From Heterobilharzia americana (Eukaryota > Platyhelminthes > Trematoda > Strigeidida > Schistosomatidae), in assembly GCA_944470555.2 (NCBI GenBank), contig OX104134.1, forward strand, positions 97,892,701-97,956,700: a DNA stretch of 64,000 bases. Direction: 5' to 3'. The position numbers and the translations under genes are program-made. The notes under the pieces are model-generated. The model did no database searches and was not told the origin of the DNA. It was given only the letters and a program-made list of their open reading frames with translations. Position 1 is the first letter of the stretch; the number at the start of each line of letters is the position of its first letter. Shown here in pieces: positions 4,290-58,254 of this stretch.

Positions 4290-4505
4290 AAATATGGACG
4301 ATTTGATTCTGACCCACTGGCTCAATAGTAACTTACTAACCACGGAACCTGAATGTCCTGGGTTCATTCCCTGTCGGAGTCATGGCCGCATGCTGTTGAG
4401 AAGTCCTATAGAAGGACGAAACAGCTATCCAATGCTTCCCGGTCTTCAGTGGTTCTCTAACTGATGTCAGTCCGTGATGAATACCAAATTGAAGTCAATA
4501 AATCA
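4290..4505 (+). mobile_element. Family 2 tRNA-headed SINE-like repeat with hammerhead-like motif
   Basis: The head reads like a tRNA: A-box-like CCACTGGCTCAATAGTAAC and B-box-like GTCCTGGGTTCATTCCC. About 40 bases on, a hammerhead-like order appears: TTGAGAAG, TCC, ATAGAA loop, GGAC, GAAAC, AGCT, ATC. It ends with the family tail CTAACTGATGTCAGTCCGTG and ATGAATACCAAATTG. In this copy C3 and G8 of the core are substituted. The family has at least seven other copies in the window (14.1, 16.6, 17.0, 28.9, 41.7, 45.7 and 47.0 kb). Confidence 0.75.
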
Positions 4506-4550
4506 ATCCTAAGAAACCTCCAAATGGAAATGAATGAAGTAACTTTCTTG

Positions 4551-4720: not shown

Positions 4721-5186
4721 TGCGAAATGAAAACAATTGTTGTTTGACCTGTCCACTTCGATCGGCACACAACATTTAGGACTTGACGATAGTCTGTCGC
4801 CTATAATCCAGTCCCACATAGGGTCAGTCATAGGCTGACTAACTTTTTAGTGAAGTGTATAGCTTCGGTAGTAGGTGGCACAAGTTAGTGTCCCTGAGCA
4901 AGCATGATTTCACTCAAGGCTATGGGTGCGACTTTTTTGTGGGATTTCAGTAAACCACGCAGTAATTGCATGTATGTAATTTCACTATTATCGATCATGT
5001 TTTTAGTATCATTGCAGAAATTTTATGAAATGGTGGGGTGTGTAAATACACCGTCTTATATTGGTCATATTGGTCACAAGTTTCATGACACTGTTAATAA
5101 AACTGTAAATGCATGTGTACATCACGTTAACAAGGCCACACAGTACATTCTGATTGTTATTAGACCTTGGACTGGATGGCTTATGA
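4721..5186. other. Stretch without a supported gene
   Basis: A 117-codon open frame (4904-5257, plus) begins here. It has hydrophobic patches but no recognised domain, and its 3' third runs through an inverted-repeat element, so it is not called a gene. Confidence 0.4.
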
Positions 5187-6475: not shown

Positions 6476-6541
6476 AACGTGATGTTGGGTGATCCTCAGT
6501 AACCAGTCGATGTATCTCATCAAGCTCTACAAAAGGCCCAT

Positions 6542-6715
6542 CGTGGCCTGAATACCTCAGTGGTATGGTCCATGGCTGCAGCACTGGGTGACGTGGGTTC
6601 GAATCTCTGAAGAGATGTCAGTTCCATGCAGGTTGCTGATGAGAACCAACAAGCACGAAACCGAGGTTAAACAAGGCTTTCTATTGATCTCCTCTAACTA
6701 ACTAGCACTATGCAT
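6542..6715 (+). mobile_element. Family 4 tRNA-headed SINE-like repeat with hammerhead-like motif
   Basis: An A-box-like CGTGGCCTGAATACCTCAG is followed 45 bases later by a perfect B box, GGTTCGAATCT (6596-6606). AGATGTCAGTTCCATGCAGG leads into the hammerhead-like motif at 6631-6673 and then the tail CTCCTCTAACTAACTAGCAC. A second copy with the same order lies at 24.28-24.56 kb. The head differs in sequence from SM-alpha and family 2, so this is a separate family or a distant subfamily. Confidence 0.7.
6631..6673 (+). ncRNA. Candidate hammerhead ribozyme of family 4
   Basis: CTGATGA is intact (6636-6642), GAA is intact (6657-6659), stem III is ACC/GGT with a two-base loop, and the cleavage triplet is GTT (NUH rule satisfied, cut after 6668). 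The stem I arms GTTG and AAAC pair at three of four positions. Stem II (GAACC / GCAC) is poor in this copy. The core is complete but the helices are weakened, so activity is doubtful. Confidence 0.5.
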
Positions 6716-7558
6716 TCATAATTTATCTACTTATACGTGTTTATTCGAAGAATGGTGACAACAGCAATTACAAACTAAAGATTGAATATTTTTTGCAGCA
6801 GTCTAACTGTTCTTTCTGCATGCTCTCTAGAGCTGAACAGCACTCCCAGCTAATTCTAAGTCAGCCATTATTTCCGTAACTTCCCAGGAATTTTTACAAC
6901 TTGTTGCGCTCATACTCCTTAAAATACGTTTCATCCAACACGTAGATTAGAAATGATTTTTTTATCTTATAAAGGTTATGTATAACTATTTGGTTAAAAA
7001 CCTTGAATTGTTCTCACAAACTGATCTTGAATTCATACGATTAACTTCATTTTACGAGCAAGATTCAAATCTTTCTATGAGGAGCAGATGCAAGTTTTTT
7101 AAGCTAACTCAATGCGTCATTTAACGTCCGGTATTCATATGTAGCACTCATATACAGACAAATCTGCTGTGGCATTACTTATGAATACTAATCACATCTA
7201 ATTCACATTTATTCTATTCAGTATTCACTTTATCTGTTTTCTTCCACGATAACGGTTAGTCAAGAAACATTTTCATAAGTTTAAAAGGAAAGTGAAGTGT
7301 TAAATTTCTACTTCATTTTTTGTAAATGACGACAGTTTCATCACTAAATTATTCAGCTTAGAAAAAGATTGGTGGTATGAAAAACATTTGTGGAGCTGTG
7401 GTTCATTGGTTTGAAGAATTGATATTGAACCAGGGGGTCGTGCGTTCGAACCTCGATTAACTAAATAAGGTTTGGGTAGACAGATCATAATTATCATTGG
7501 CTATGACACACCAGGTATGGCTAATTCCCTACTGCACGAACATGTACAAGTTTTCTGA
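6716..7558. other. AT-rich stretch, one isolated B-box-like site
   Basis: No gene was recognised. TGCGTTCGAACCTCG near 7440-7454 resembles a Pol III B box behind GTGGTTCATTGGTTTG, probably the head of a decayed tRNA-derived repeat. Confidence 0.4.
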
Positions 7559-8725: not shown

Positions 8726-9361
8726 AATTTGCTTTCCGGTTGGTACATACTATGATGATGCACAAAGCGATGAGTATCCTCTGACTTAATTCATTGAATT
8801 ATGTGTTTATTCTATTTTGCATTAATGATGGATAGTTACTCTCAGTGAATTGTATCTGCTCGCCGTCTATCAGAATGATACAGTAGTAGGAGAATTTTCA
8901 GAGATTACGACAACTGTCACACTGTTCTTAAATCTCAAAAAAGAGGGATTTAGTTTCGTGAGTCACTTTTCAAATGGCGAAGTCTACAGTCTTCTGAAAC
9001 TTCAGCACTCTCAGTAGGAAAGTAAGATCGATATCCATCAAGAAGCACTAGACAGACTACAAAAGGTTAGAAACATATTTTGCAGAATAAAGTATTAGGT
9101 AGGAAAATATAAACTGCGGACAAAATACAGTACTATGTGGAAATTAAGCATAGTTCTGGAATAGCTGGTACATGTGTCCCAGAGTTCATATGAAGGCTAG
9201 AAGTGAATTGTACCGGATTAAAAATGTTTATAAGCTGCAATGTTTAAACCTTTATTAGTAATTTATGGCTGTCAATAATTACTTTCCTAAGAACAAGTTC
9301 CTTCGAATAATAATTAGGTTTTATTTAGGTTAGACTTCAAGTTTATCTGAGATATATGGAA
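8726..9361. other. Stretch without a recognised gene
   Basis: AT-rich spacer between RTE copies B and A; no motif-bearing frame. Confidence 0.45.
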
Positions 9362-9610
9362 GCCTAACCTCGCCTGGTTAACTAGTTTACTAGTTACTAG
9401 CCGGTCCTAAGCCCGGGTAAAGAGGGAAGGTTGGGCATAGGGCTAGCAACCCTACCCCGTAAAACAAATCTAACCGCTAAAGAAACTTCAAAGCACAAAC
9501 AAAATATAAAAAATGAAAACAAACTTATTCCCCGCTGGAATCGGAGAGGCGAAATGACGCCAGTTGGTGAAAGCCTTCGGGAAGCCAATTGGCCGATGTG
9601 TCTTCTCTCG
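9362..9610 (+). promoter_or_regulatory. 5' leader of RTE copy A
   Basis: About 250 bases before the first likely Met of the endonuclease. The words GTAAAGAGGGAAGGTTGGGC, GGCTAGCAACCCTACCCCG and AAATCTAACCGCTAAAGAAA recur in copies C, E and F. That conservation suggests the internal promoter of the element; promoter activity itself is inferred. Confidence 0.55.
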
Positions 9611-10470
9611 ATGAAAGCGAAAGTAAACGTGGGGACATGGAATGTCCGCACCATGTTTGAACCCAGTAAGGCAGCCCAGATTGCAAAGGAGATGAGAAGG
9701 TATAACATCGAAGTGCTTGGGATTTGCGAAAGCAGATGGAATGGGAGTGGACTCTCCAAACTGTCAACTGGAGAATCAATAATCTACTCCGGTCACCCAG
9801 ACGCCAACCACGAGCACACTGAGAGGAGTGGCTATCATGATGTCCTCAAGAGCATCGAAGGCTCTCATGCAGTGGGAACCAATCTCCTCCAGGATCAGGA
9901 TCATGACAGCAAGATTCAACTCAAAAGGAAGAAAGGTCACAATCATACAATGTTATGCACCTACAAATAATGCAGAGCAAGAGAAAAAGGAGGAATTCTA
10001 CAGACAACTTCAATCAACACTGGACAAGACGTCAGTTGGCGATATCAAAATTCTAATGGGCGACATGAATGCCAAACTGGGAGGGGACAACACGGGAAGA
10101 GAACTAACCATGGGTCGAGAGGCGCTAGGTGAAATGAATGAGAATGGAGAATTGTTTGCAGAATTCTGTGCATTCAACGATTTGGTGATTGGAGGCAGTG
10201 TGTTCAGGCACAAGGATATCCACAAAGCGACATGGATTTCACCAGATGGACACACTAAAAACCAAATCGACTTTATCTCAATCTCAAGAAAATGGAGACG
10301 CAGTCTACTTAACACAAGGTCAAGAAGAGGAGCAGATGTAGGTTCAGACCACTATCTAGTGCAAGGAACCTTCCAAATCAAGTTAAAAGCCTTCAAGGAA
10401 GCTGGTGATAGACCTCAATTCAAGTACAACACTCGGAAACTGAAGGATGAAACTACAAAGGAGATCTTCA
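9611..10470 (+). pseudogene. APE-type endonuclease domain of RTE copy A, one frameshift
   Basis: This part encodes the nuclease that nicks the target for reverse transcription. Visible motifs in order: GTWNVRTMF near residue 8, the catalytic Glu in ICESRW, CYAPTNN, LMGDMNAKLG, NQIDFISISRKW and GSDHYL. These are the active-site blocks of APE-like LINE endonucleases. The start at 9611 (MKAKVNVGTW) sits close before the first block; an upstream in-frame Met at 9431 would add the leader and is less likely. One extra base near 9825 moves the frame from 2 to 3. No stop codon lies in the composite frame. It resembles proteins annotated as craniofacial development protein 2-like, which are RTE endonucleases. 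Confidence 0.92.
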
Positions 10471-11930
10471 AGAGCAGCCATCAAGACAAAATGGGAGACA
10501 TCGAGGGACATCCCTGAAGAAACCTGTGTAGAAGAACACTGGAAGTCTTTGAAAGCTATGTGGAAAGAAACCTGCACAACAGTATTAGGAAGGAAGAAGA
10601 AAGAAGACAAGGAATGGATCTCGACGGATACCTGGAAGCTGATAGAGGAGAGGAGGATGGTGAAGCAGAAGATAAACCAGTGCAAGGATGCTCAACGACA
10701 AGAGGAACTGAGCACAATGTATAAAACACTGGATAAAGAAGTGAAGAAGAGTGCACGCAAAGACAAACGACACTTCTACGACACACTGGCAAGTGAAGCA
10801 GAACAGGCTGCAGGTAAGAGAGACCTGACGACATTGTATCAAATAACCAGGTTGCTATCAGGGAAGAGACCAACACAGATGAAACCAATAAAAGATGAAG
10901 AAGGAAATTTAATTACAAAAGAAGAGAAACAGAGGAAACGATGGGCCGACCACTTCAAGAAGCTCTTGAATCGACCACCACCTGCACTTCGTCCAGAAAT
11001 ACCACCTGCAGCCGCTGAATTACAAGTGAACATTAATCCCCCAACGAAAATGGAAGTCCTGAACGCCATAAAGCTACTGAAATGCGGGAAAGCAGCAGGA
11101 CCAGATGGAATACCGCCAGAAGCACTGAGAACAGATGCAGAGACAACAGCGGACATGCTCACACCACTATTGCAGAAGGTGTGGAGGAAGAGAAGGTACC
11201 TGACGATTGGAAGAAGGGTTACCTTGTCAAACTGCCGAAGAAGGGAGACCTCAGTGCTTGCAAGAACTGGCGCGGAATCACTCTCCTGTCCACCCCAAGT
11301 AAAATATTAAGCCGCATCATCCTGGAGAGGCTTAAAGACGCACTGGATTCAAAACTGCGACCGGAACAGGCAGGCTTCAGGAAGTACAAATCATGTGCTG
11401 ACCAAATTGCAACGCTTCGTATCATCATAGAACAGAGCGTAGAATGGCAATCAGCTCTATACCTCAACTTCATCGACTTTGAGAAGGCCTTTGACAGCGT
11501 CGACCGAGAAGTAATTTGGAAACTGCTTCAATACTACGGAGTACCGCAAACCTTTATCCGCCTCATTCAACAACTATATGAAGATGCCACATGCCAAGTA
11601 ATCCACAATGGGAAGCTCAGTGATGCCTTTGAAGTGAAGACAGGAGTGAAACAAGGTTGCCTACTATCCCCCATGATATTCCTTATTGTGGTGGACTGGA
11701 TCATGCAGCAAACAGTAGGCAGCGAGAAGAGGGGGATACACTGGACGACGGAAAAGAACCTAGAAGACTTGGATTTCGCCGATGACTTATGCCTAATGTC
11801 ACATAAACTTGAAGATCTGCAGGCAAAAACTAACAAGTTGACAGAAGAGGCAGCTAAGACGGGACTTCAGGTGAATATAGAGAAGACAGAAGTGATGAAG
11901 ATACCGCACCACCACCATCACAACAACAAC
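10471..11930 (+). pseudogene. Linker and reverse transcriptase domain of RTE copy A, frameshifted
   Basis: A charged, Lys/Glu-rich linker (frame 1) leads to AAGPDGIPPEAL, the first RT block. A one-base loss near 11190 shifts the frame to 3, which carries the rest of RT: LLSTPSKILSRIIL, the motif A aspartate in IDFEKAFDSVDR, motif B GVKQGCLLSP, motif C LDFADDLCLM with both catalytic Asp, and motif D GLQVNIEKTEVMK. All catalytic residues are present. The frame entry at about 10470 is also shifted relative to the endonuclease. There are no nonsense codons, so decay so far is by small indels only. Confidence 0.92.
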
Positions 11931-11934
11931 AACA

Positions 11935-12576
11935 AACTCCAATCACCGTCAACGGGAGAAACTTGAAGGAAGTAACCTCCTTCACTTATCTAGGAAGCAC
12001 TGTTTCAACTACAGGCGGGACGGACGAGGACGTCAAAGTCAGAATCGGAAAAGCAAGACAGGCATTCATTAGCCTGAAACCAGTGTGGAGATCTTCTGCA
12101 CTCAGCATGCGGAACAAGATACGGATTTTCAACACCAACGTCAAGTCAGTGCTCTTGTATGGCTCAGAGACTTGGCGCGTCACGAAAGGCATTTCCAATA
12201 AACTACAGACATTCATCAACAACTGCTTACGCGCTCGCTGCTGAAGATCAGATGGCCAGAAAAAATAAGCAACAAGGAACTCTGGGAACGAACCAACCAA
12301 GAACCTATCACGCAACAAATATGCAGGAAGAAGTGGAGATGGATTGGCCATGCACTGAGAAGGCCGACTGAGGACATCACGCGTCAGGCCCTCGAGTGGA
12401 ATCCCCATGGGAAGCGACGAGTTGGACGTCCAAGGGTGACATGGAGGAGGTCATGCGAGGAGGAAATGAGAGCTTCTGGGCTGTCGTGGAACCAGGTTCA
12501 AAAGATCTCAGAGAACAGAGGTCACTGGAGGCGTGCTACTGAAGCCCTATGTTCCACTAGGAACCCAAGGGACTAA
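11935..12576 (+). pseudogene. C-terminal domain of RTE copy A
   Basis: Downstream of an AAC/CAC tract that changes the frame, frame 2 gives FTYLGSTVSTTGGTDEDV, SLKPVWRS, IFNTNVKSVLLYGSETW and the thumb-like continuation. Near 12240 the frame moves to 1, which carries RWPEKISNKELWERT, RWIGHALRRP and RRVGRPRVTW, ending at TAA 12574-12576. This is the usual tail of RTE-type RT proteins. Summed over the frames the protein would be close to 990 residues, normal for the clade. Confidence 0.88.
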
Positions 12577-13074: not shown

Positions 13075-13280
13075 TACTGGTAATTTCCCATTGGTATACC
13101 TGACCGAATTGATCGACTTCTGTTGGGATACGGGTTCCTGTCAAAATGCCTTGATAAGTCCTGCAGATTCACTATATAATGTACTCTGCTTGGTAGTGGC
13201 TATCAGTGGAGCAAAAGATATAGGTTTTGTCCCAAATGGGGCTCATCAGCTTTTCCGCGAAATAAACCGTAAAGTGAACC
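13075..13280 (-). mobile_element. SM-alpha-like fragment, minus strand
   Basis: On the minus strand the ribozyme part reads AGCTGATGAGCCCCATTTGG then GACAAAAC, followed by CCACTGATAGCCACTACCAA and the 3' half (GACTTATCAAGGC, AATTCGGTCAGGTATACCAA). CTGATGAG is intact, but the second core motif is AAAAC instead of GAAAC and the stem I pairing is lost. Confidence 0.65.
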
Positions 13281-14104: not shown

Positions 14105-14300
14105 CCATTCGTAGTGATAATTTCAGGTTGGTATTCATCGTGGAATGACATCAGTTGGAGGGACATTGGAAATCTGGGAACACTGAGCAGTTGTTTCGTC
14201 CTAGTATGGGACTCCTCAGCAGTGAGCACCCATGACCCCGTCAGGGATCGAACCCAGGACATTCAGGTTCGGCGGCCAGTATGCTGTCACTGAGCCACTG
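14105..14300 (-). mobile_element. Family 2 SINE-like repeat, complete head, hammerhead-like motif
   Basis: On the minus strand: A-box-like CAGTGGCTCAGTGACAGCAT, B box GTCCTGGGTTCGATCCCTG (14241-14259), then CACTG-CTGAGGAG, GTCC/GGAC stem II with loop CATACTA, GAAAC, AACT, GCT, CAGTG, and the tail CCAACTGATGTCATTCCACG. The cleavage triplet is GCT, breaking the NUH rule at U16.1. Both stem I arms (CACTG/CAGTG) are intact. Antisense open frames of 65-72 codons across it are not genes. Confidence 0.75.
14179..14226 (-). ncRNA. Candidate hammerhead motif of family 2
   Basis: CTGAGGA and GAAA cores are intact and stems I and II pair fully. Only the cleavage triplet (GCT for GTC) and stem III (ACAACTGC) are damaged. 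With the 45.7 kb copy it defines the family structure. Confidence 0.5.
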
Positions 14301-15165
14301 GTCTATATTTCCTACTTCTGTCAGCTCACTTTATAACCCAACCTTCACCAATGCCGTCGTTGACTGTCTTCATGTTCCAATATTTCGTGTTCTGACATTA
14401 ATCAATGATGAATACAAATCTGAAATCAATAAATAAACCGCACACACTTCAAAATCGTGGTGATAATGTTTAATTCTACTCTTCTCAAATTTAAAGGTTT
14501 CTTTCGCAGTGCAAGTGGTTTTGAACTGTGATTTGTGGGGTGGAAGAGGGGGTGGTTATCCGGCTCACTAAATAACTACGCCTTTTGGTATGATTAATCC
14601 AATATCTATGGTGAATGTTCGCCATTTCACTGAGTCACGGTCGCAAACTTTCTGACTGAAAGATGAAATGAATTCATTTCACGTTCAATCAAACTATCTA
14701 AAACAATCTCTTGCACATAGGGCTGATGATGATTGTAGTTCATGAATTTATGACTTTATAAACAATGCTTCTCTGACCACATGTGGTTAGCCCCACATTC
14801 AATGACCTGATAAACGTGTGTTCAAATATTAAGGACATTCTGTTCCCTAATGTCACGATTTTTCACTAATTCATACATTATGCTTTATTCACCTATCTTA
14901 TGACTAACAAGTTGTAGCTTTCTGACTAACTTGGGGGGTGGATAGGTCCTTTGTACTGCAGTACTCAGTCTATGACTCAGCAGTGTGCCGGTTTCATCCT
15001 CTTTGAAGGTAAGGCGTAGATAGATGAGCTTCTTTTCAGTTGTACTTCACTTGATTCTCTTCGTTTCTGCCCTATTGTACTTGTCAATGAAATTCTGTGT
15101 ACAACCATTTTCGCGTAGACAGTTTTGGACAAAGGTCGTTTCTTCCTCGATTTTCCGTTCAGGCA
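14301..15165. other. Stretch with only a family 2 tail remnant
   Basis: AATCAATGATGAATACAAAT with CTGAAATCAATAAATAAA at about 14399-14440 resembles the family 2 tail. Nothing else is recognised. Confidence 0.4.
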
Positions 15166-16460: not shown

Positions 16461-16599
16461 CCCTTTGGACACAGTTTATTGTCCGAACAAACGGAAACCC
16501 TCGGGAAGAGAGTTGTCTACAATTTTCCAGTAATTACTACTGTTAAATTTACCTATTGAAGTTAATTAAAGTCACTAGCAAAGATATATGCTTGATCAC

Positions 16600-16745
16600 T
16601 TGGAGAACTACTGAAAACCTGGGAACACCTGACAACTGTTTCGTCCCAATATGCTACTCCTCGGAAGTTTTCACCTACGACCCGATCAGCGAACTCGTTA
16701 ACCATCCAGCCACTGGGTAGGAGTTAAGTTGTCCACGGTTTTCTA
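16600..16745 (-). mobile_element. Family 2 SINE-like repeat
   Basis: On the minus strand: CCGAGGAG, stem II bases around ATATT, GGACGAAAC, AGTTGTC, and the family tail CCCAGGTTTTCAGTAGTTCT. U4 of the core is changed to C. The head is partly preserved (GTTAACGAGTTCGCTGATCG). Confidence 0.65.
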
Positions 16746-17165
16746 CTTCCATCGATTAGCAATATAGCAAGACTATCCACCGTGGTCTTCATTTGGCGTC
16801 CGCTTCACTTCCGATTGGCTGACTCCACAGGACGCTTGTCATAAGAACTCCAGGATAACCATCTCGAAGTATGTCACAAACGAACACCATAATGAAGACC
16901 TTGGTAGATGACCACGCTGAGTTGCGAACTGAGGGAGGTAGGAAAACATAAACCGTGGGAATCCGACCCAGTGGATGAATTGTTAGTGCGTTCACTACGA
17001 AACTCAAAGGTCTTGAGTTCGGTCTCTGACGGAATCGTAGGTGAGTACTTGTGAGGAGTCCCATACTAGGACAAAATAGCCGTCCAGCACCCCAAGGTTT
17101 TCAATAATTCTCCATTTCGTGATGAATGCTACCTTAAATAAAATTCCGCACCAACTTGAAACTCC
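16746..17165 (+). mobile_element. Family 2 SINE-like repeat, plus strand, with adjoining repeat body
   Basis: The part 16955-17165 has the head (TTAGTGCGTTCACTACG, B-box-like GAGTTCGGTCTCTGACGG), TTGTGAGGAGTCCCATACTA, GGACAAAAT, AGCCGTCCAG and the tail TTTCGTGATGAATGCTACC. C3 and G12 of the ribozyme-like core are lost. 16786-16880 shares CTCGAAGTATGTC and CACTTCCGATTGGCTGA with the reverse complement of 41.83-41.93 kb, so a longer repeat body is likely. Confidence 0.6.
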
Positions 17166-17524
17166 ACTTATTTCCTTCTTTGGAAAGAAGGATGAGGAAA
17201 TTCGAGTACGTAAGTTCAGCATTTTAAATCTATAGACTCTTCCTTGTGTTGTCTTACGTTCAACTTTGCACTAAAAATCGATACTTCAGAAATTGCCCCT
17301 TGTTGAACTTAGCTTATCAGTGAACACAGGAGTGGGTAAAAATGATGACCGACTTGCCTGTATGGGTGAGAAGCCATACCTCATTGATCAAGTTTTGTTG
17401 GAATCCCTTGTCCTAATGAATAGATAACAACCGCTGGCACTAGAATCAGTCAAGTGTGATTCCAATTTACTGACCCATCTAAAAATCAGTCACTTACATA
17501 GACGTGTCAATGAAGTCTATGTAG

Positions 17525-17672
17525 CGGACAATGCTTTGATGTTTGTAGACGTAGGGATTGCTTTTCAGTCTCAGAGAGAAAACCAACGCTCAATGGAAGG
17601 CAAGTGGATCCAGCCGACGAATCCCAAATAAGATGAAACACTTGTCCTGGATTCTACTACCAGGAATTAAGA
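17525..17672 (+). mobile_element. SM-alpha-like element
   Basis: The degenerate head GCGGACAATGCTTTGATGTT precedes a hammerhead at 17608-17651: ATCCAG, CCGACGAA, CAAATA loop, GATGAAAC, TTGTC, CTGGAT. U4 to C breaks the core. Stem I is perfect and the GTC triplet is kept. The tail TTCTACTACCAGGAATT is altered. Confidence 0.75.
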
Positions 17673-18240
17673 ATTACTGTTAATTCGTATGCCTTGGGTT
17701 CCTAGTGGAAATAGGACTTCAGCAGAGCGTCGCCACTTCACTCTCTTCTCTCCAGTCTTTTCAACTTGAATTCACGACTGCCAACAATCTTTCATTTCTC
17801 CTTCACACGATCTCCTCCGTGTCACCATCGGACGTCCAACCTGCCATTTCCCACTCGGGTTCCACTAGACGGCCTGGCGTGGTCGGGTCGGTGATGTCCC
17901 CAAAAGGTCTCCTCAGTGTATACCCGATCCATCTTCACTTTCTTCTACATATTTGTTGGATGATGGGTTGTTGGTTGGTTGGTTGGTTGATTCGTTGCCT
18001 GCCAGCCAAACACAGTTCATTCTTGCTTATTCTTATGATTCTGACCATCTATCTGATCTCCATCTTCAGTGTCAGTATCGAGTGAGTGTAGGTGGCAGCT
18101 GTTCATCAATGTCTACAGTTTGTTGGAAATGCTTTTCATAACGCACCAAGTCTCTCAATCATCACGTCACATAGAAGCACTGACTTACTTGACTGAGATT
18201 AGTGTTGAAAATCCGAATGTTGTTCAGGCTTTATGCTGAG

Positions 18241-23633: not shown

Positions 23634-24282
23634 CAAAATTTTCAGACAGATCTAAATGACAGACCAGGGACTTTGTTATGCTAGCAATTTTCCCTTGTAT
23701 ATCTTTCTGTCTAGGTGTTTCTGTTACAGACACACGCTAGACAACAGTATTTATTGTTTAAGGCAGAGATGCTGTGTGCGTGTGCGTATTCGTCTAATCT
23801 GAAGCTATTTTCAAACTGCACACACTTGCTGTCTGAGTATAACTGTAGGCATATAGTGGCTTGTTATGCAACTGGTATTCAGAATAAAGGCTAGCTAGCT
23901 ACCGAGTGTTGATAAACATTAGATTGCATCGTCGTTAATTAGCTGAATTCATCCAGTCTGGAAATGAAACTTCAACTTCTTGCCGACAAATTATCCAGAA
24001 TTTGGTTCCCTGATTATAGCATCTACACTTGTTGTATATTTTTTGCTCATGTCAAATCTTGAATCTCCCTATCACATAGTTTACCAACTAGTTAGCCTAG
24101 TTTTGTATGTTTCATTGAAAATCTAGCCTTACTTTATTCAGTCCTTTTTCTTTGATGGGACCGCTTTTATCGCCTTCTCTGTTAAACAGTTATTATCGCC
24201 TTTCCATTTTCTAAAAATTTCTTTTGTAGGTGTGGCAAACTATTCCTTCGGTACGGTCAGAGTTGACGAAAGAGGGAGGTCA
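23633..24282. other. Stretch without a recognised gene
   Basis: No motif-bearing frame; no assigned repeat. Confidence 0.4.
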
Positions 24283-24560
24283 GTCGCACCCCGAATAGTT
24301 CAACGGTAACGTTGCTAGCTACAATCCTAGGTGGCCGAAATTTGAATCCCAGAGGGGACATCAGTTCCCTCAACGTCAGAGATACGCCTTACTGACGAAT
24401 GCCAACAAGCATGAAACCTAGGTCCAGTCTTCCTACCTATTACCTCTAACTAACTAACACCCATCAAAATGCACCGCTAGGCTAAGCCTCCCAGCTTGGT
24501 GGCCACATTGCAATAATGATCGATGGAATTCGGTATGCACTCAGGGCTAGATACTATGAG
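24283..24560 (+). mobile_element. Family 4 SINE-like repeat with hammerhead-like motif, longest copy
   Basis: Order: A-box-like CCGAATAGTTCAACGGTAAC, B-box-like AATTTGAATCCCAGAGGGG, TCAGTTCCCTCAACGTCAG, the ribozyme-like motif (24392-24424), CTCTAACTAACTAACACCC, then the tail AGCTTGGTGGCCACATTGCA and GATCGATGGAATTCGG. The tail is shared with 6.4 kb and 45.4 kb. The repeat is about 280 bp and has no coding capacity. Confidence 0.72.
24386..24430 (+). ncRNA. Candidate hammerhead ribozyme of family 4
   Basis: All core bases are present: CTGACGA (24392-24398), GAA (24413-24415), triplet GTC with the cut after 24424. Stem II is a perfect ATGC/GCAT with loop CAACAA. Stem III is ACCTAGGT, a perfect palindrome. 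Stem I is weak (only two of four pairs). The motif is homologous in place to the 6.6 kb copy. Self-cleavage is not shown. Confidence 0.55.
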
Positions 24561-27725: not shown

Positions 27726-28854
27726 ATCTGCATTGATTGAGAGAAGTTTCTGAAAATATTTCTACATTCTTTGTTATCTGTAAATTGTTCATAATATGAT
27801 CATCGAATTACTATCTAAAGAAGGGGTCAGTAAACCCATTGAAGTAGCGAACTTTCCAGTTCACTCTTCTCGATGTGGTTAGGTTTGTGAAGCAAGGCAG
27901 GTTTTACAGAGAAGATAGGGAATAAAACCGAAAGGATAATCTGGTTGGCTACGCGATCAGAAGTTCGGTGGCTCGTACTTTTCCACAATCTTGGTTGTTT
28001 TAGTTTCAGATATGGATCTTTTAAATAAGAACCAACTCCGATAATCCAAGGTAATCTAGTCAGCCAACCTGTAAGTTATAAGTCACAGTTACTAATGAAT
28101 TACCGCAACTCTAGGTATACGCATACTCTCTTCAAGAGATTAAAAGAAGCGGTGAAATTCAGGTGATTATCTTTGCCATGTCAGATACCACTTAGCTAAA
28201 TAACTATGGTTAGATTTGTTAGTTCAATTAAACAATTTTGTCACTCTTTTTGACTTACTATTCAGTGTAATGAATAGTATGGAAAATTTTCTCTTTAGAT
28301 CATCCACTATTTGGTGTTCTTCTGATGGCTACCTGTTTATGTAGTCAAGGTAACTGCTTTTGTTTCTATTTATCTATCGGTTTTGTCCGAGATAGAAATT
28401 AACTTTTTGGTTGTTACCACCCAATATAAATGTACTGATGTAACGTGTTAGGTGATAACATATAATTCAGGAATGCCAGTTTCGAGGATGAAGAATATTC
28501 CTGAATAGTAGTCTATTTAATGTACTTCTGCGTACTATCTTCTTTATTGTGAGTAGGTGAAGGAATGAACATAAGTAGAAAAAGCGTTGTATGAACAACA
28601 TACGATTTTGTATACTCTCTTACTGTTCCTCATTTTGAATAAACTATTGCGTATCAGTTAGTGTCAGTGTGAATTTTTAGATCCAATGACTGTACAACTG
28701 CTGCTGTTGGGATGATAGTAGATGCTTTTTTCACTGCATGAAATACTTTATTAAACTATGAATTGGTAAAGACTGTCATTAAACTATCTCACCTGTTTTG
28801 CCAACTCTTTTAATCAAACTATATGTTTGCATTCTCATATTGATTTTACGCTAC
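27726..28854. other. AT-rich stretch without a recognised gene
   Basis: A nine-base palindrome arm pair TACTATTCA/TGAATAGTA lies at about 28258-28281. No coding sequence supported. Confidence 0.4.
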
Positions 28855-29000
28855 TATTCATCATGAACTGACACCAGTTGAAGAACCATTGAAAATCTGG
28901 GAGCACTGGACAAGTGTTTCGTCCTCGTTTGAGATTCATTAGCAATGCGCACTTAAGACCCCATGAGGGATAGAGCTCAGGGAAGAAGGATCGCTAGGAG
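28855..29000 (-). mobile_element. Family 2 SINE-like repeat with hammerhead-like motif
   Basis: On the minus strand: B-box remnant GAGCTCTATCCCTCATGGGG, then CTAATGAATCTC, loop AAACGA, GGACGAAAC, ACTTGTCCAGTGCTCCCAG and the tail CAACTGGTGTCAGTTCATGA. The second core motif, the triplet GTC and CAGTG are intact. G5 is replaced by A. Confidence 0.7.
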
Positions 29001-29099
29001 AGCATCCTGCAATTTATTACAACGTTTCCCTGTTCTTTTAGTTCAGCTTGGATTCGGCTGGGATGGGAAGATCTAAGTGGGTGTTCGTTGTGACTATTA

Positions 29100-31380: not shown

Positions 31381-31517
31381 TTTAGAGGTAGTATTCATCA
31401 TGAACTGACATGGGACTCCTCAGCAGTCCCATACTAGGGCTAAACAGCTGTCCAGTGCTCCCAGATTTTCAATGATTCCCCCACTGATGTCAGTCCATGA
31501 TGAATACTACCTCTAAA
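31381..31517. mobile_element. Palindromic element built on a family 2 repeat
   Basis: Terminal arms 31381-31410 and 31488-31517 are 30-base inverted repeats with one mismatch (starting TTTAGAGGTAGTATTCATCA). Inside lie GGGACTCCTCAGCAGTCCC, itself a hairpin, and ATACTAGGGCTAAACAGCTG-TCCAGTGCTCCCAG, which is family 2 sequence. The left arm is the reverse complement of the family 2 tail, and the inner hairpin contains CTGCTGAGGAG on the minus strand. The structure suggests a folded or template-switched family 2 copy. Confidence 0.82.
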
Positions 31518-33549
31518 TAAAGTTCTTAGATTTTACTGGCGCTTAAAAGTAACTTAAATCAGTTCAAGTATATATTTCAAGGACAGTGTACACAATAACT
31601 AGGCTTTCATTCAGTAACTTCTAGTGTTCAGGGATTTCGTAACTTATGACGAACCACATGTGGATGAGTTCCTAGAAGTTAATACCTTTTGGGAGCTAAG
31701 GTATTTTATTCATTAAAAAAAATTGAAACTTCTCTCAGCATTATTTGCAGACGGTTATCTCTTTATCTTAAACGGTAGTTCTTCAATGGCTAGTACTCAT
31801 CAATGAGGCTTTTTTGAAATGTTTGAGCAACTTATGATCCTTCAGAAACTCAAATCTGCTTAGTTCAGCAGCACAGTCAGGAATTTTGTCTCTGAGCTGT
31901 TACACCAGTAACTAAATTAGTTCAGAAACAGAATAACTAAATTCACGAGTCAAATGGCTTGAAGACCTTAACCTGTAAGGAGTCAGCCGCTGGTTTCATA
32001 GCTTAGTGGTCACGATTTTGAACTTTGGTACTCAGTGGCATGGATTTGAATCACTTTTAAGACAACAGTTTCCTCAGAATTATAAGTGTATCTTGTAGAC
32101 AACTAGCGAAACGAATGACACCTTGGTATACACCTTCTTGCTGCTCATCCTTGATAGAAGTAGCAACTGAAACTAGACACAACAGGTGTATCAGCTGTTC
32201 TTTCATGTTTCCCGTTGTATATTTTCTTTTTTCCTTTCTGACAGATGACCAATGACATAGCACAGACTGTGAAGATATGTAATATAAAGTTTTTGGTACC
32301 CCACTGTCCTGCCTACCACCTTCCTCAAACTCATAGGCATAATCCATACACAAATCTGATGTATAAGACTGTACTGATAATCTATTCATGCAAAATCATC
32401 TTCCACTCAACGAAAGTTTTTTATCGTGCACTCTAGTTAGCTGCGTAGCTGTCGATAAAGATAGCTGGACGGCTGTTTCATTCCAATTTGAAAATCTCCA
32501 GTGAAGCTCACTTTTGATGCTTGATAAAATTTAGGTTCTTACATACAAGTACAGTATCAAGTAACCTACAGTTTAGCGAATGGCTTGAAATCATATGGTA
32601 GGCACTTATAACCTTTGCTGTCTCACAATGTAGCACAACCATACTCTGCTATCACTAGAGAACATCGTTTTTCACTCTCGACTTGGCTTCCATATTTTAT
32701 ATAATTTATTTCATGAATTTCACTGAAAAAAGTTATTACAGGTAATTTTAACATAGTAAAGATGATTTGAGTTGCTCAACACTTATCATCTTACAAAACT
32801 ATTGATATTTTAGGTTCAGATGCAGGTATTCTAAAAATAAACGTGCTTTTGACACTGATTTTCGCATGCTAATGCTCATGTAAGACAGTGAATTGATTCG
32901 ACGTTCCTTCGCATGGACACGCTGTAAAGATCCATGTGCAGCAATTACTTTGGGACAGAATGACAGCGCGATTCAAACGTATCATCCACGGGTGTTGCAT
33001 CTAAACTGGAGCATCTAACTAGGCACGCCATAACCTGACGCATTCTGTTGTTAAGTTTAAATTTTTTACTAAAGTTGGTAGGAAGTCGTTGTATCTACCT
33101 AAAATCTCAGAAATCTGTAAAACGAAAATCACTTTCTCGAGGTAATTTACGTTTGTTTTCACTTCATTGTCATGTGGCACAATTTGATTGTTCATCTCAG
33201 TGTTCCGTCAAAATGATCATCAAGAAGGGAATAGATTTTGTAGACATCGGGATCAAAATTTGACCTAACAGAATTCTAGAAGTTCAGCAGTGAATACATT
33301 TCGTTTATAAACGAATAGATGATTATTTAGGAATAAGACACTCAGCAAAGGGATTGCTTTTAAGGAATTTATTTTCAAACTATACATTTGCATGTAAATG
33401 ATATGTGAAAAATTATGTCTCACAATGAAACTGAAATAATGGGTAATAATATTAATAACGCAAAAACACTTATAGTTATGATGTTAGCCAAAATGTGAGT
33501 GATAACAAAGTAGATCATTAAAGAGATGTGGAATGACTTACGCCGCGAT
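31518..33549. other. AT-rich stretch, one tRNA-like head
   Basis: TTCATAGCTTAGTGGTCACG with GGATTTGAATCAC (31995-32055) is an A/B-box pair of an unassigned tRNA-like repeat. The 110-codon minus frame (32057-32389) has no recognised motif. Confidence 0.4.
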
Positions 33550-41704: not shown

Positions 41705-41840
41705 ATCTGGATTTCATTCTTAAGGTAGCATTCATCACAGACTGACATTATTTGGAAAACCGCTGAAAATCTAAGGGCACTGGACAGCTATTTCGTCCCC
41801 ACTAACCTCAAAATACGTTACTGTATAGTACTGATTAATG
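41705..41840 (-). mobile_element. Family 2 SINE-like repeat
   Basis: Minus strand: TTGAGGTTAGTGGGGACGAA, ATAGCTGTCCAGTGCCC, and the tail AATGTCAGTCTGTGATGAAT. GTC and CAGTG are intact, CTGAGGA is lost. Confidence 0.65.
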
Positions 41841-42080
41841 ACGTACTTCGAGATGGATATCGCGAAGTTTTAATGACAAGCTGTGATCTATGGGTCAACC
41901 AGTCGGAAATGAAGTGGAAGCCAACTGAGGAACTTGAGTGATAGTTGTGCTATATCACGAATTGGTAGAAGTAGGAAACTATGGACAGCTGGACTCCAAC
42001 CCAGAAGCTGAGTGGTTAGCGCTTTTGTCGTGGAACCTAAAGGTCTTGAGTTCAGTCCCTAACCGGCCCGTGGTTGCATA
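41841..42080 (+). mobile_element. Family 2 body and tRNA-like head, plus strand
   Basis: CTTCGAGATGGATATCGCG and GTGATCTATGGGTCAACCAG lead to the head AGCTGAGTGGTTAGCGCTTT and the B-box-like GAGTTCAGTCCCTAACCGG. It stops before the ribozyme part. The same body precedes a head at 16.8-17.0 kb and at 46.9 kb. Confidence 0.6.
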
Positions 42081-43889: not shown

Positions 43890-44150
43890 AGTGAAATGAA
43901 AATCTGCGCCATTGTGAGTACGGTCAAACGATAAAACCGCGTCACGAATTCATATGGCAGTTGGACAGAAGCCTTGGTGACTGAAGTGAAATTAAAATCT
44001 GGTCAGCAGTCGAATCTCATAGCTCAGTTGGTAGAGCACCGGGCTAGTAGCTCGGAGGTCTCTAACTCTAATCTTACTGAGGCCCAAATTTTCATTTCTC
44101 TTCCAATCATCACCCAGTATCTATACAAGTGGCCGTCTCATAAAGTCAAA
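43890..44150 (+). mobile_element. Family 3 SINE-like repeat, best preserved head
   Basis: TCTCATAGCTCAGTTGGTAG is a near-perfect tRNA A box (44013-44032), AGCACCGGGCTAGTAGCTCG follows as in a tRNA anticodon arm, but the B box is decayed (TCTAACTCTAATCTTACTG). It then continues AAATTTTCATTTCTCTTCCA and ATCATCACCCAGTATC. A minus-strand head piece (43890-43925) adjoins. It is not a functional tRNA gene because the T-arm is lost and the body is shared with the other copies. Confidence 0.75.
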
Positions 44151-44998: not shown

Positions 44999-45317
44999 GA
45001 CTAGGGTGGTGTTCAAACCGAGACAAACTTTCTCGGCTTTAGGATTCTATTGACTGGATTAAAGAAAACACTTAATTTGCCAAATATCATGCAGTGGGTG
45101 CGAGATCAAGCGCATAGATCAAACCAGACGGTCAGGAGCTAGTTAGGTTAGCAGAACATATGAACGTAGATAAGTCTACGTTGACAGACCCTACTATGAT
45201 GAGCAATCTAGAGAAGAATTCAGGCATAGCCACGCATGCTATAACACAACTGCACAATAGAGTGAAACACAGTAGCTATTCTAAAGACTGATGCGATTAT
45301 ATCGACTGGTCACTTGA

Positions 45318-45445
45318 GAGTGACCAGTTCCATGTTGTCTAGTCCTGAGTGCTGACCGAATTCTCTTGATCATTTTTGCAATGTGGTCACCAAGGGAGGG
45401 AACTCACCATTGCTGTGAACTCCGATTGATGTTAGATCCTTAGAG
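45318..45445 (-). repeat. Family 4 tail, minus strand
   Basis: AGTGCTGACCGAATTCTCTT and TGCAATGTGGTCACCAAGG are the reverse complement of the tail at 24.5 kb. Confidence 0.55.
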
Positions 45446-45689
45446 GTTGTCCATAGGAAACTGAACAGCGAAAGGAGGTGGTCACTGAATCTTAGTTAAT
45501 CGATTCAATGTCTAATATGTATAGTAAGAATAACTGAACACCGATATAAGACATGTAGAAAATCCTACTATCATTAAAATCAAAGAATGAGAAGCAGTAG
45601 AACTGCGAGAAGAACGAAGACAGGAAGTTATGCGATTGGCTTAAAGTGAATATGAAGGATAAGTTGTGGATGAAACGTCATCTAGTAAA

Positions 45690-45830
45690 TAATACTGCTG
45701 AAGAGTCCCATTCGAGGACGAAACAGCCGTATAGTGCTCCCAGGTTTCCAATTTTCCTCCAAATGACATCAGTCCATGATGAATTCCAAGTTGAAGTTAA
45801 TTATAAATCCCCACAAACCTCCAGACTGAA
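45690..45830 (+). mobile_element. Family 2 SINE-like repeat, headless, best ribozyme motif
   Basis: It starts at the hammerhead-like motif and keeps the tail GTGCTCCCAGGTTTCCAA, ATGACATCAGTCCATGATGA, ATTCCAAGTTGAAGTTAAT. The tRNA-like head is absent. Confidence 0.75.
45693..45736 (+). ncRNA. Candidate hammerhead ribozyme of family 2, all core bases present
   Basis: CTGAAGA (45698-45704), stem II GTCC/GGAC with seven-base loop CATTCGA, GAA (45720-45722), stem III ACAGCCGT, triplet GTA (allowed by NUH; cut after 45731). Stem I TACTG/TAGTG pairs at five positions, two of them G-U. This is the only copy of the family in the window with both core motifs and an allowed triplet. Type I, with open stem I ends. 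Activity is an inference. Confidence 0.58.
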
Positions 45831-46939: not shown

Positions 46940-47170
46940 GTCATGAATCAACAGAAGCAGGTAACTGTGGAACATTGAACTCCGACCCATTGAGTGTATG
47001 GTCAACGCTTTCGCGGTGAAACATGAAAGTGCTGAGTTCGATCCCTAGCCGGGTAGTGGGTGTATACTGTCGAGGAGTTCCATACTAGGAAGAGACAAAT
47101 ATCAGTGCTCCCAGGTTTCAATGGTTCTCCAACTGATGTTTGTCAGCTACCTAGTATTGAATTACATCCT
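46940..47170 (+). mobile_element. Family 2 SINE-like repeat, complete
   Basis: AAGCAGGTAACTGTGGAACA and GAACTCCGACCCATTGAG lead to GTATGGTCAACGCTTTCGC, B box GAGTTCGATCCCTAGCCGGG, then TCGAGGAGTTCCATACTAGG, AAGAGAC, ATC, AGTGCTCCCAG and the tail CTCCAACTGATGTTTGTCAG. U4 and several second-motif bases are lost. Confidence 0.72.
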
Positions 47171-56598: not shown

Positions 56599-56775
56599 CT
56601 GGGGTCATTTTGCCTCTCCGATTCCAGTGAGGAATAATTTTGTTATTATTTTTTATATTTTGTTTGTGCTTTGAAGTTTGTTTAGCGATCGGATTTGTTT
56701 TCCGGGGTTGGGTTGCTAGCCGTATGCCCAACCTTCCCTCTTTACCCGGGCTTAGGACTGGCTCTTAACTAGTGA

Positions 56776-58254
56776 ACTTGTCTTATTTATGTTGCATACT
56801 ACCGGAGAATTAGGCACCATTTCAACCACAATATGTGTATTTCTCTAGAGATGTCGGAAAAGAAATGGCGAATTGAGGTTTCTTTATGTCTGAAAACGGA
56901 GTAATTTTCAGTGTTTCGATATCGTGAATATGATATTTATTCGGGATAGGTCTGTTTTGTGAGTACGTTTGATAAAAATTATCATAGTAGAATCACTCGA
57001 TATGTAAGTTGTCAATATGTTTGCAGTGGTTACACAGTCACATTTTATGAAGTGAATATCAGATGTAACAAACTGTTCTTAACCAAGTCAAGTATTTCAC
57101 CCAAGTTAACAAGAATCAGGTGTATTAGTACACAGGATAATGCAAAATACGCAAGATAAACCGAAGTGTGTTTAGCTTACCTCCTGTTTAGCAAATAATG
57201 ACAGGAATGTTGGTATTGGAGGAGAATAGATAAAGCAATATGGAGAAACAAACTGTTTAGAAGACTGTATACTTGCAGCTAGTTTTCATTTAACGTAACT
57301 GGTCCTTCTGATTAACTTGAAAAGCGGAATGAGAAGACGAAGATTATGTGAAACCTGTGATGTGTTAGGTTTCATTACCAAGGTCACCCCGAACTATGCT
57401 ACTTTCTAATTTTAAGTAGCATAAAACTGAAGCGTAAATATAATCAAAAGGCATAGAAAGCCATAATGAGAAGTTTGAGAATAACTGAAATCAGCAAGAG
57501 AAAAACAAATAAAGAGAATTGAGCACGGTCAGATTCTTTGCCCAACCATCGATGATTCAGTAAAATTACTACATATTAAATCCATGGAAATTATGTTCAT
57601 TGTGGAATGACTCAATTTATTATCTACATATTTAAAGTAAGTATTTAGGCAGAATGGTAAGATTTTGTTTTGATATTTACACACCAATCATTTAAATTTC
57701 TTTTTCAACATCCACAGATAAAAATCAGTTGATTTCTTGAACAGTTGATATCTCTTTCTATAACAGTCTTTCTTCAAGGTCAAAGTAAACGGATTAAAAG
57801 GAGTGAACTTTCGAAATTTGCACAGGGCAGGAACAATTATTACTCACCTAATTTCAAGCCTGATCTCTGTGTGTAGAAGAGTTATATTCAGTCTAACATT
57901 CTACAATGGTCTCAACCCCTCCTTTTATTTTATTGTTTTTTTTAGATTTCATCATAATTAATCATTTTGCAATTATCAACTTCATCATGACTCTTATTTC
58001 TCTCTGAATTCTTCAGCCAAGGGGACACTCCATAGTATTTCCCATCTACTGAAAATTTTCACCTTGTCAAGTTCCTTGTTTACCTCGTTAAGTGCCTTTT
58101 ATAACATATTATTACGCGACTCCTTTCCCCTCCTTACTTCAGTATGAACACTACCTTAATGACCTAAATACACCATATCTGTCGAAAATAAACTGTTGTA
58201 TGCTTGCAATATGAATTTCAAAAAAATGTATAGGAAAAGATAAAAGATAGTTGC
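56776..58254. other. AT-rich stretch, half fold-back element
   Basis: 56853-56925 (GAATTGAGGTTTCTTTATGT) resembles half of the CCACTCTAGC-arm element. Nothing else is assigned. Confidence 0.4.

Follow-up and report, generated by a model that had tools for sequence, protein, structure and literature searches.

A decayed second family of hammerhead-bearing SINEs beside SM-alpha in Heterobilharzia americana

The window analysed here is a 64,000-nucleotide stretch of the Heterobilharzia americana genome (contig OX104134.1, positions 97,892,701 to 97,956,700). It contains repeats with hammerhead ribozyme motifs, which we assigned to three families: SM-alpha-type elements (F1), a second family (F2) and a third one (F3). 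The F2 features are given below, each copy named by its position in kb. Mismatches are to the 44-mer of a preliminary description of this DNA, and lesions are those of the hammerhead core and triplet.

45693..45736, + strand: F2 hammerhead motif; CUGAAGA, GAAA and the GUA triplet all intact (7 mismatches)
45692..45812, + strand: F2 element at 45.7 kb, ribozyme and tail only, 5'-truncated at the ribozyme
4303..4511, + strand: F2 element at 4.4 kb; head, hammerhead 4391-4434 (C3U, G8A; 9 mismatches), tail
14107..14311, - strand: F2 element at 14.2 kb; head, hammerhead 14181-14224 (core motifs intact, triplet GCU through U16.1C; 3 mismatches), tail
16582..16727, - strand: F2 element at 16.6 kb; head with internal deletion, hammerhead 16626-16669 (U4C; 10 mismatches), tail
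16957..17153, + strand: F2 element at 17.0 kb; head, hammerhead 17046-17089 (C3G, G12A; 8 mismatches), tail
28827..29016, - strand: F2 element at 28.9 kb; eroded head, hammerhead 28904-28947 (G5A; 9 mismatches), tail
46976..47159, + strand: F2 element at 47.1 kb; head, hammerhead 47065-47108 (C3U, U4C, A14G and a gap at the cleavage site, the gap position being alignment-dependent; 14 mismatches), tail
31413..31525, + strand: F2 fold-back copy at 31.4 kb, ribozyme 3' half and tail
41718..41799, - strand: F2 element at 41.8 kb, 3' part; second ribozyme half and tail
41839..42080, + strand: F2 element at 41.8 kb, 5' part, inverted; 5' module and head, ending at the ribozyme start

The motif at 45693-45736 pairs at 5/5 positions of stem I, 4/4 of stem II and 3/4 of stem III. 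This copy was said to keep both core motifs and an allowed GTA triplet. It does, and it is the only one of seven F2 motifs in which core and triplet are fully intact, the other six being damaged. It is also the sole site with zero core deviations among the 11 sites found with the hammerhead descriptor defined below. Rfam Hammerhead_1 matches it at 45692-45732 with 25.5 bits, below the gathering score of 34. A search of positions 45300-45695 with the head profile detected no tRNA-like head upstream of it. The Pol III-type head said to precede the motif is a tRNA-like head in most copies, but none was detected at 45.7 kb.

When both strands were searched, seven of the eight places listed in the preliminary description contained the F2 motif, with 3 to 14 mismatches from its 44-mer. 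The eighth, at 41.8 kb, has half a motif only, the ribozyme 5' half being missing, and the head and the ribozyme half lie there in opposite orientations, contrary to the proposed order. Head, ribozyme and tail are all present at 4.4, 14.2, 17.0 and 47.1 kb among these eight places; the eroded head at 28.9 kb scores 6.2 bits with the head profile. An extra copy, absent from the earlier list, starts at 31414 (+) and has 6 mismatches to the 44-mer. Its 5' half and tail end are repeated inversely on the left, the apparent first half being the reverse complement, and the fold-back arms (31377-31411/31487-31521) are 94% complementary over 35 bases. The F2 alignments comprise seven of the nine places and exclude the 31.4 kb copy (inverted-repeat 5' half) and the 41.8 kb copy (half motif). 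A hand sum of the F2 pieces in the window comes to at least about 360 bp. Among the profile matches in the window there was no tandem F2 array; the copies are dispersed single units. At 16582-17153 two F2 copies stand head to head and share the intervening stretch, with arms that are 72% complementary over 92 bases. An inverted F2-like tail (14375-14440, + strand, 13.9 bits) adjoins the 14.2 kb copy, just ahead of its 5' end.

SM-alpha elements are reportedly SINE-like repeats of Schistosoma mansoni described by Ferbeyre in 1998; the elements of this type in the window would indicate a schistosome as its source. Their best representative in the window by Rfam score is the following element.

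17504..17681, + strand: SM-alpha-type element (F1) with the window's best Rfam Hammerhead_1 match, 53 bits

F2 had been presented as a repeat family distinct from SM-alpha, with a different head, stem II loop and tail, and leave-one-out profiles bear this out in 13/13 tests. With itself left out, each of the seven F2 copies scored 78 to 146 bits with the F2 profile and 0 to 12 with that of SM-alpha, a preference of at least 77 bits for every copy. All six SM-alpha copies tested in the same way scored 50 to 135 bits with their own profile and 0 to 17 with that of F2. Iterated per-family profiles were dropped after all families had merged, and strict seeds with leave-one-out were used instead. 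Sixteen matches were of the SM-alpha type, eight of which were aligned; those at 2.8, 13.2, 25.0, 27.5, 38.5, 39.1, 39.4 and 40.1 kb were left out. F2 and SM-alpha (W36.2) of S. mansoni share a tRNA-like head, a type I hammerhead at the same place, stem II GUCC/GGAC and a self-complementary, loop-less stem III. They differ in the majority stem I (UACUG/CAGUG in F2, UCCAG/CUGGA in SM-alpha), in the stem II loop (CAUACUA, seven bases, versus CAAAUA, six), in stem III (ACAGCUGU versus ACGCGCGU), and in head and tail.

The majority sequence of the seven F2 copies contains CUGAGGA, GAAA and GUC and thus agrees with the hammerhead consensus of CUGANGA, GAAA and an NUH triplet. Its stem I 5' arm is TACTG; the CACTG proposed earlier occurs in the 14.2 kb copy only. 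The claim that core lesions differ in position from copy to copy holds roughly: six of seven copies are damaged, but C3 is hit in three of them and U4 in two. Three stems can be paired around the core, with the end of stem I open: 89% of the stem I cells in the seven copies are paired, 86% of stem II and 71% of stem III. Of the F2 cells in the outer helix of stem I (UGGG/CCCA), only 64% are paired, without compensation. The core is conserved at 86%, the stems and loop II at 82% each and the flanks at 80%. Since core and flanks are so similar (86% versus 80%), there is no clear sign of selection on the copies, and the decay appears close to even. Covariation across the F2 copies, which the preliminary description had named as a test for stems I and II, was absent: the one double change observed within the family was reached by 443/500 shuffles. 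Within F2, 78% of cells pair, compared with 77.5% in shuffles and 33 to 40% in slid controls, the latter favouring a structure derived from those very sequences.

The window holds more hammerhead-like sites than expected by chance. The pattern CTGANGA..GAAAC occurs six times versus 1.21 expected, and 0/100 shuffles reach six. Two of these sites are in F2 (14.2 and 45.7 kb), two in F3, one in SM-alpha and one (2387) off the known elements. A structural descriptor allowed at most two core deviations and required at least 4/5 pairs in stem I, at least 3/4 in stem II with a loop of 4 to 9, at least 2/4 in a loop-less stem III and U before a non-G at the cut. It gave 11 sites, seven on SM-alpha-type repeats and four on F2 (4.4, 14.2, 28.9 and 45.7 kb); 100 dinucleotide shuffles yielded 1.23 sites on average and never more than 5, none reaching 11. 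Apart from the hammerhead core, this descriptor contains no letters taken from the families, but its stem lengths were fixed after viewing them. One of the SM-alpha-type sites, at 13212, is on a weak 22-bit fragment. The F2 copies at 16.6, 17.0 and 47.1 kb failed the descriptor. Among the aligned copies the whole core is also kept in SM-alpha at 40.7 kb and in F3 at 6.6 and 24.4 kb, whose stems fail it.

At gathering thresholds Rfam reports six hammerheads. Each belongs to an SM-alpha-type element, and F2 has no match at this level. At E values up to 10, Hammerhead_1 gives 14 matches, nine on SM-alpha-type elements and five on F2: 14.2 kb (27.7 bits), 28.9 kb (27.6), 45.7 kb (25.5), 17.0 kb (24.4) and the 31.4 kb fold-back copy (19.9). 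The F2 copies at 4.4, 16.6, 47.1 and 41.8 kb have no Hammerhead_1 match at this cut-off. The expected match to the type I model (RF00163) was therefore seen in none of the seven aligned F2 copies at the gathering score of 34, while four of seven match at the exact site with 24.4 to 27.7 bits; these scores are for single copies. Because six of the SM-alpha seeds were chosen from Rfam hits, the Rfam matches on SM-alpha elements are partly circular and the agreement is informative for F2 only. The F2 seeds came from the motif of the preliminary description.

The third family is represented by two elements.

6527..6730, + strand: F3 element with tRNA-like head, hammerhead core 6636-6661 and different stem II loop and stem III
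24277..24484, + strand: F3 element with tRNA-like head, intact core 24392-24417 and stem II AUGC/GCAU

The 24.4 kb copy has a perfectly palindromic stem III, ACCUAGGU, and only 2/5 pairs in stem I; Rfam Hammerhead_HH9 matches it with 21.3 bits (gathering score 52). The 6.6 kb copy has an intact core with 2/4 pairs in stem II and 3/5 in stem I. By hand, its 5' arm and the 3' arm at 24.4 kb could pair at 5/5 positions, two of them G-U. Weaker F3 profile matches of 12 to 30 bits lie at 4814, 31789 (-), 31982 and 47198.

When seven F2, eight SM-alpha and two F3 rows were aligned, 79% of the cells of the 13 core pairs were paired (26 to 36% in slid and 66.8% in shuffled controls). Double-change cells between families numbered 35 versus a shuffled mean of 17.6, a value reached by 0/500 shuffles, with the qualification that the rows represent few lineages and the cells are not independent. 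The between-family covariation score was 0.450, compared with 0.240 in shuffled and at most 0.120 in slid controls. Pairs showing a double change between families numbered 9, which was not above shuffling (mean 7.7; reached by 132/500). Counted by hand, the F1 and F2 majority sequences both pair at 13/13 positions and differ on both sides at four. A covariance model built solely from F2 also recovered SM-alpha motifs (the best at 17604, 27.9 bits, E 1.3e-4) and, with 24.2 bits (E 1e-3), the F3 motif of the 24.4 kb copy at 24375. The pairing between families and these matches are the best evidence for what would be a once-working fold, kept while its letters changed. Two of the model's 19 matches are off assigned elements, at 32457 (-) (E 0.05) and 25905 (-) (E 0.9). 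The former (32457-32518, 17.6 bits, E 0.049) has GAAAC and a stem III-like stretch and is unclaimed by the F1 and F2 profiles (2.7 and 7.5 bits).

The palindromic stem III claimed for F2 is perfect in the majority sequence, where ACAGCUGU is self-complementary, but only 4 to 6 of 8 positions are self-complementary in the seven single copies. The 8-copy SM-alpha majority and the Rfam consensus both have ACGCGCGU, and a 6-copy profile gives ACGCACGU. Single SM-alpha copies are self-complementary at 2 to 8 of 8 positions and the 6.6 kb F3 copy at 6 of 8. A stem III without a loop cannot close within one molecule, and its self-complementarity suggests that two motifs would pair and cleave as a dimer. 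Action in pairs has been reported for newt and viroid hammerheads in the text drawn on here (PMC6155905), and amphibian retrozyme hammerheads, according to the portion consulted of another paper, need dimer action for higher rates (PMC7229834). Energy folding of seven single F2 copies gave no hammerhead (z-scores -1.74 to +0.96). Homodimer folding of seven sequences, including three F2 copies and the F2 majority, recovered the full double hammerhead in none; for F3, stems II and III were recovered and stem I was not. The dimer cleavage that we propose is therefore inferred from the architecture.

The tRNA-like nature of the F2 head is weak. A relaxed ARAGORN threshold gives tRNA folds for the majority head and for that of the 14.2 kb copy, although the opposite strand of the majority head is called too and the folds gave no definite anticodon. 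ARAGORN at default settings called no tRNA in the F2 heads, and Rfam gave no tRNA match there. In the 14.2 kb head, TGGCTCAGTG and GGTTCGATCCC resemble the Pol III boxes A and B. The inversion between head and tail at 41.8 kb is no more than suggestive of twin priming; because it has that layout, we infer that F2 was inserted by a LINE. No LINE with an F2 tail was present among the F2 profile matches in the window.

Other features of the window were observed alongside. Type-P1 twister ribozyme matches below the gathering score of 67.2 lie at 9361-9434 (+; 44.8 bits) and 56728-56784 (-; 24 bits). The former directly precedes reading frames at 9431-11966, which include one reverse transcriptase domain and one endonuclease match just below cut-off, so the twister may be located at the 5' end of a LINE. 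Within this LINE region, a SECIS_1 match at 9544-9609 (+; 34.2 bits, just below the gathering score of 35) is probably due to chance. A tRNA-like stretch at 44016-44081 (+) scores 23.6 bits, below the gathering score of 29.

It could be argued that the F2 motif is an accident, i.e., a tRNA-derived repeat that merely resembles a hammerhead. The low Rfam scores of single copies, the absence of covariation within the family and the energy folding without a hammerhead would fit such a reading. Yet an accident would have to account for the descriptor enrichment (11 sites versus a shuffle mean of 1.23), for Rfam matches at the exact F2 site, for double changes between families and for three families each having a different self-complementary stem III, and we regard it as highly improbable. 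We also find it quite unlikely that F2 is merely a diverged SM-alpha subfamily. The two have the order head-hammerhead-tail in common, their majority stem II (GUCC/GGAC) is identical and the families merge under iterated profiles; with strict seeds, however, they separate in 13/13 leave-one-out tests, and head, stem I, stem II loop, stem III and tail are all different. It is concluded that F2 is a real, decayed second hammerhead SINE family beside SM-alpha. The family, its motif and pairings, the covariation between families and the decayed state are direct observations.

The explanation that we favour, with a probability of roughly 0.8, is that F2 is a SINE family with an ancestral dimeric hammerhead, inserted by a LINE and neutrally decayed. 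F2 would be a tRNA-headed, non-autonomous family of SM-alpha-like architecture, whose ancestor carried a catalytically active type I hammerhead with a palindromic stem III lacking a loop. Its RNA would be transcribed by RNA polymerase III. Two motifs, located in one tandem transcript or on separate RNAs, would join via stem III into a double hammerhead, which would cut after the GUC triplet, just before CAGUG, and release unit-length RNAs. A LINE reverse transcriptase would have inserted the copies, which then decayed, presumably neutrally.

A hammerhead element of S. japonicum, Sj-alpha, was reportedly the subject of work by Laha in 2000. The contrast with SM-alpha alone, as drawn in the preliminary description, is too simple: F2 is distinct from SM-alpha, but a study of S. 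mansoni describes, in the portion consulted, hammerheads not only in W36.2 (= SM-alpha) but also in W25.2, W26.2 and W27.2, with weak similarity among families (PMC8490949). According to that text the monomers are 415-428 bp (W25.2), 399-402 bp (W26.2), 403 bp (W27.2) and 333-335 bp (SM-alpha/W36.2). Autosomal copies number 39,648 (W25.2), 25,162 (W26.2) and 55,303 (W27.2), nearly all partial, each of the four families including W36.2 having tens of thousands of mostly partial autosomal copies. Three of five tested hammerhead candidates, variants of W25.2 and W36.2, cleave. Three of the four families have orthologues in all schistosomes examined, and the W26.2 motif is given as absent in S. 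japonicum (PMC8490949). Other partly consulted sources link tRNA-Gln-TTG repeats to SM-alpha (PMC2770079), place S. haematobium hammerhead-like small-RNA clusters on SINE/tRNA and LINE/RTE-BovB repeats (PMC5993326) and give GenBank numbers HQ880231-HQ880235 for W25-W29 fragments (PMC3701142). Likened by description alone, Sj-alpha (named in PMC2770079) resembles F2 in being SINE-like with a hammerhead. Animal non-LTR retrozymes, as described in the text consulted (PMC7229834), share with F2 a type I hammerhead in small non-autonomous retroelements; unlike them, the F2 copies of the window are dispersed single units with a tRNA-like head.

F2 is close to earlier reports for these worms and is possibly already catalogued as a W element. 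We give slightly better than even odds to its being the published W25.2, W26.2 or W27.2, an identity that competes with the novelty of the family and not with the mechanism. Compared by description alone, these families, like F2, have hammerheads weakly similar to SM-alpha and a very short stem III, with mostly partial copies and monomers near 400 bp. At about 360 bp or more, F2 is longer than SM-alpha/W36.2 (333-335), and nine places in 64 kb would correspond, by a rough estimate from genome size, to tens of thousands of copies per genome, compared with the 25,162 to 55,303 copies given for the W families in the part consulted (PMC8490949). Against this, the same text calls its candidates highly similar, the five tested coming from W25.2 and W36.2, which makes F2 a poor fit for W25.2. 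Six F2 sequence strings gave no match in the literature text searched, which says little, since sequences sit in figures and supplements. A pattern search, run without a positive control, found no F2 match in bacterial and archaeal contigs; the lack of a match in viral contigs is uninformative because the SM-alpha control was unmatched there too.

A wider reading, which we consider unlikely, is that a superfamily of tRNA-headed schistosome SINEs has one hammerhead architecture with a self-complementary stem III particular to each family (ACGCGCGU, ACAGCUGU and ACCUAGGU) as a "password", F2 and F3 being undescribed members. If true, the RNA of each SINE would dimerise solely with RNAs of its own family, forming a double hammerhead that cuts them. 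Should F2 and F3 be distinct families, hammerheads in schistosomes would not go back to a single lucky SINE but would be a component retained or handed on while heads, loops, stems and tails changed. Ribozyme biochemistry would then gain naturally occurring variants in which loop-loop partners and dimer interfaces are new, and there would be a testable case in which self-cleavage, probably dimeric, is required for the spread of the elements.
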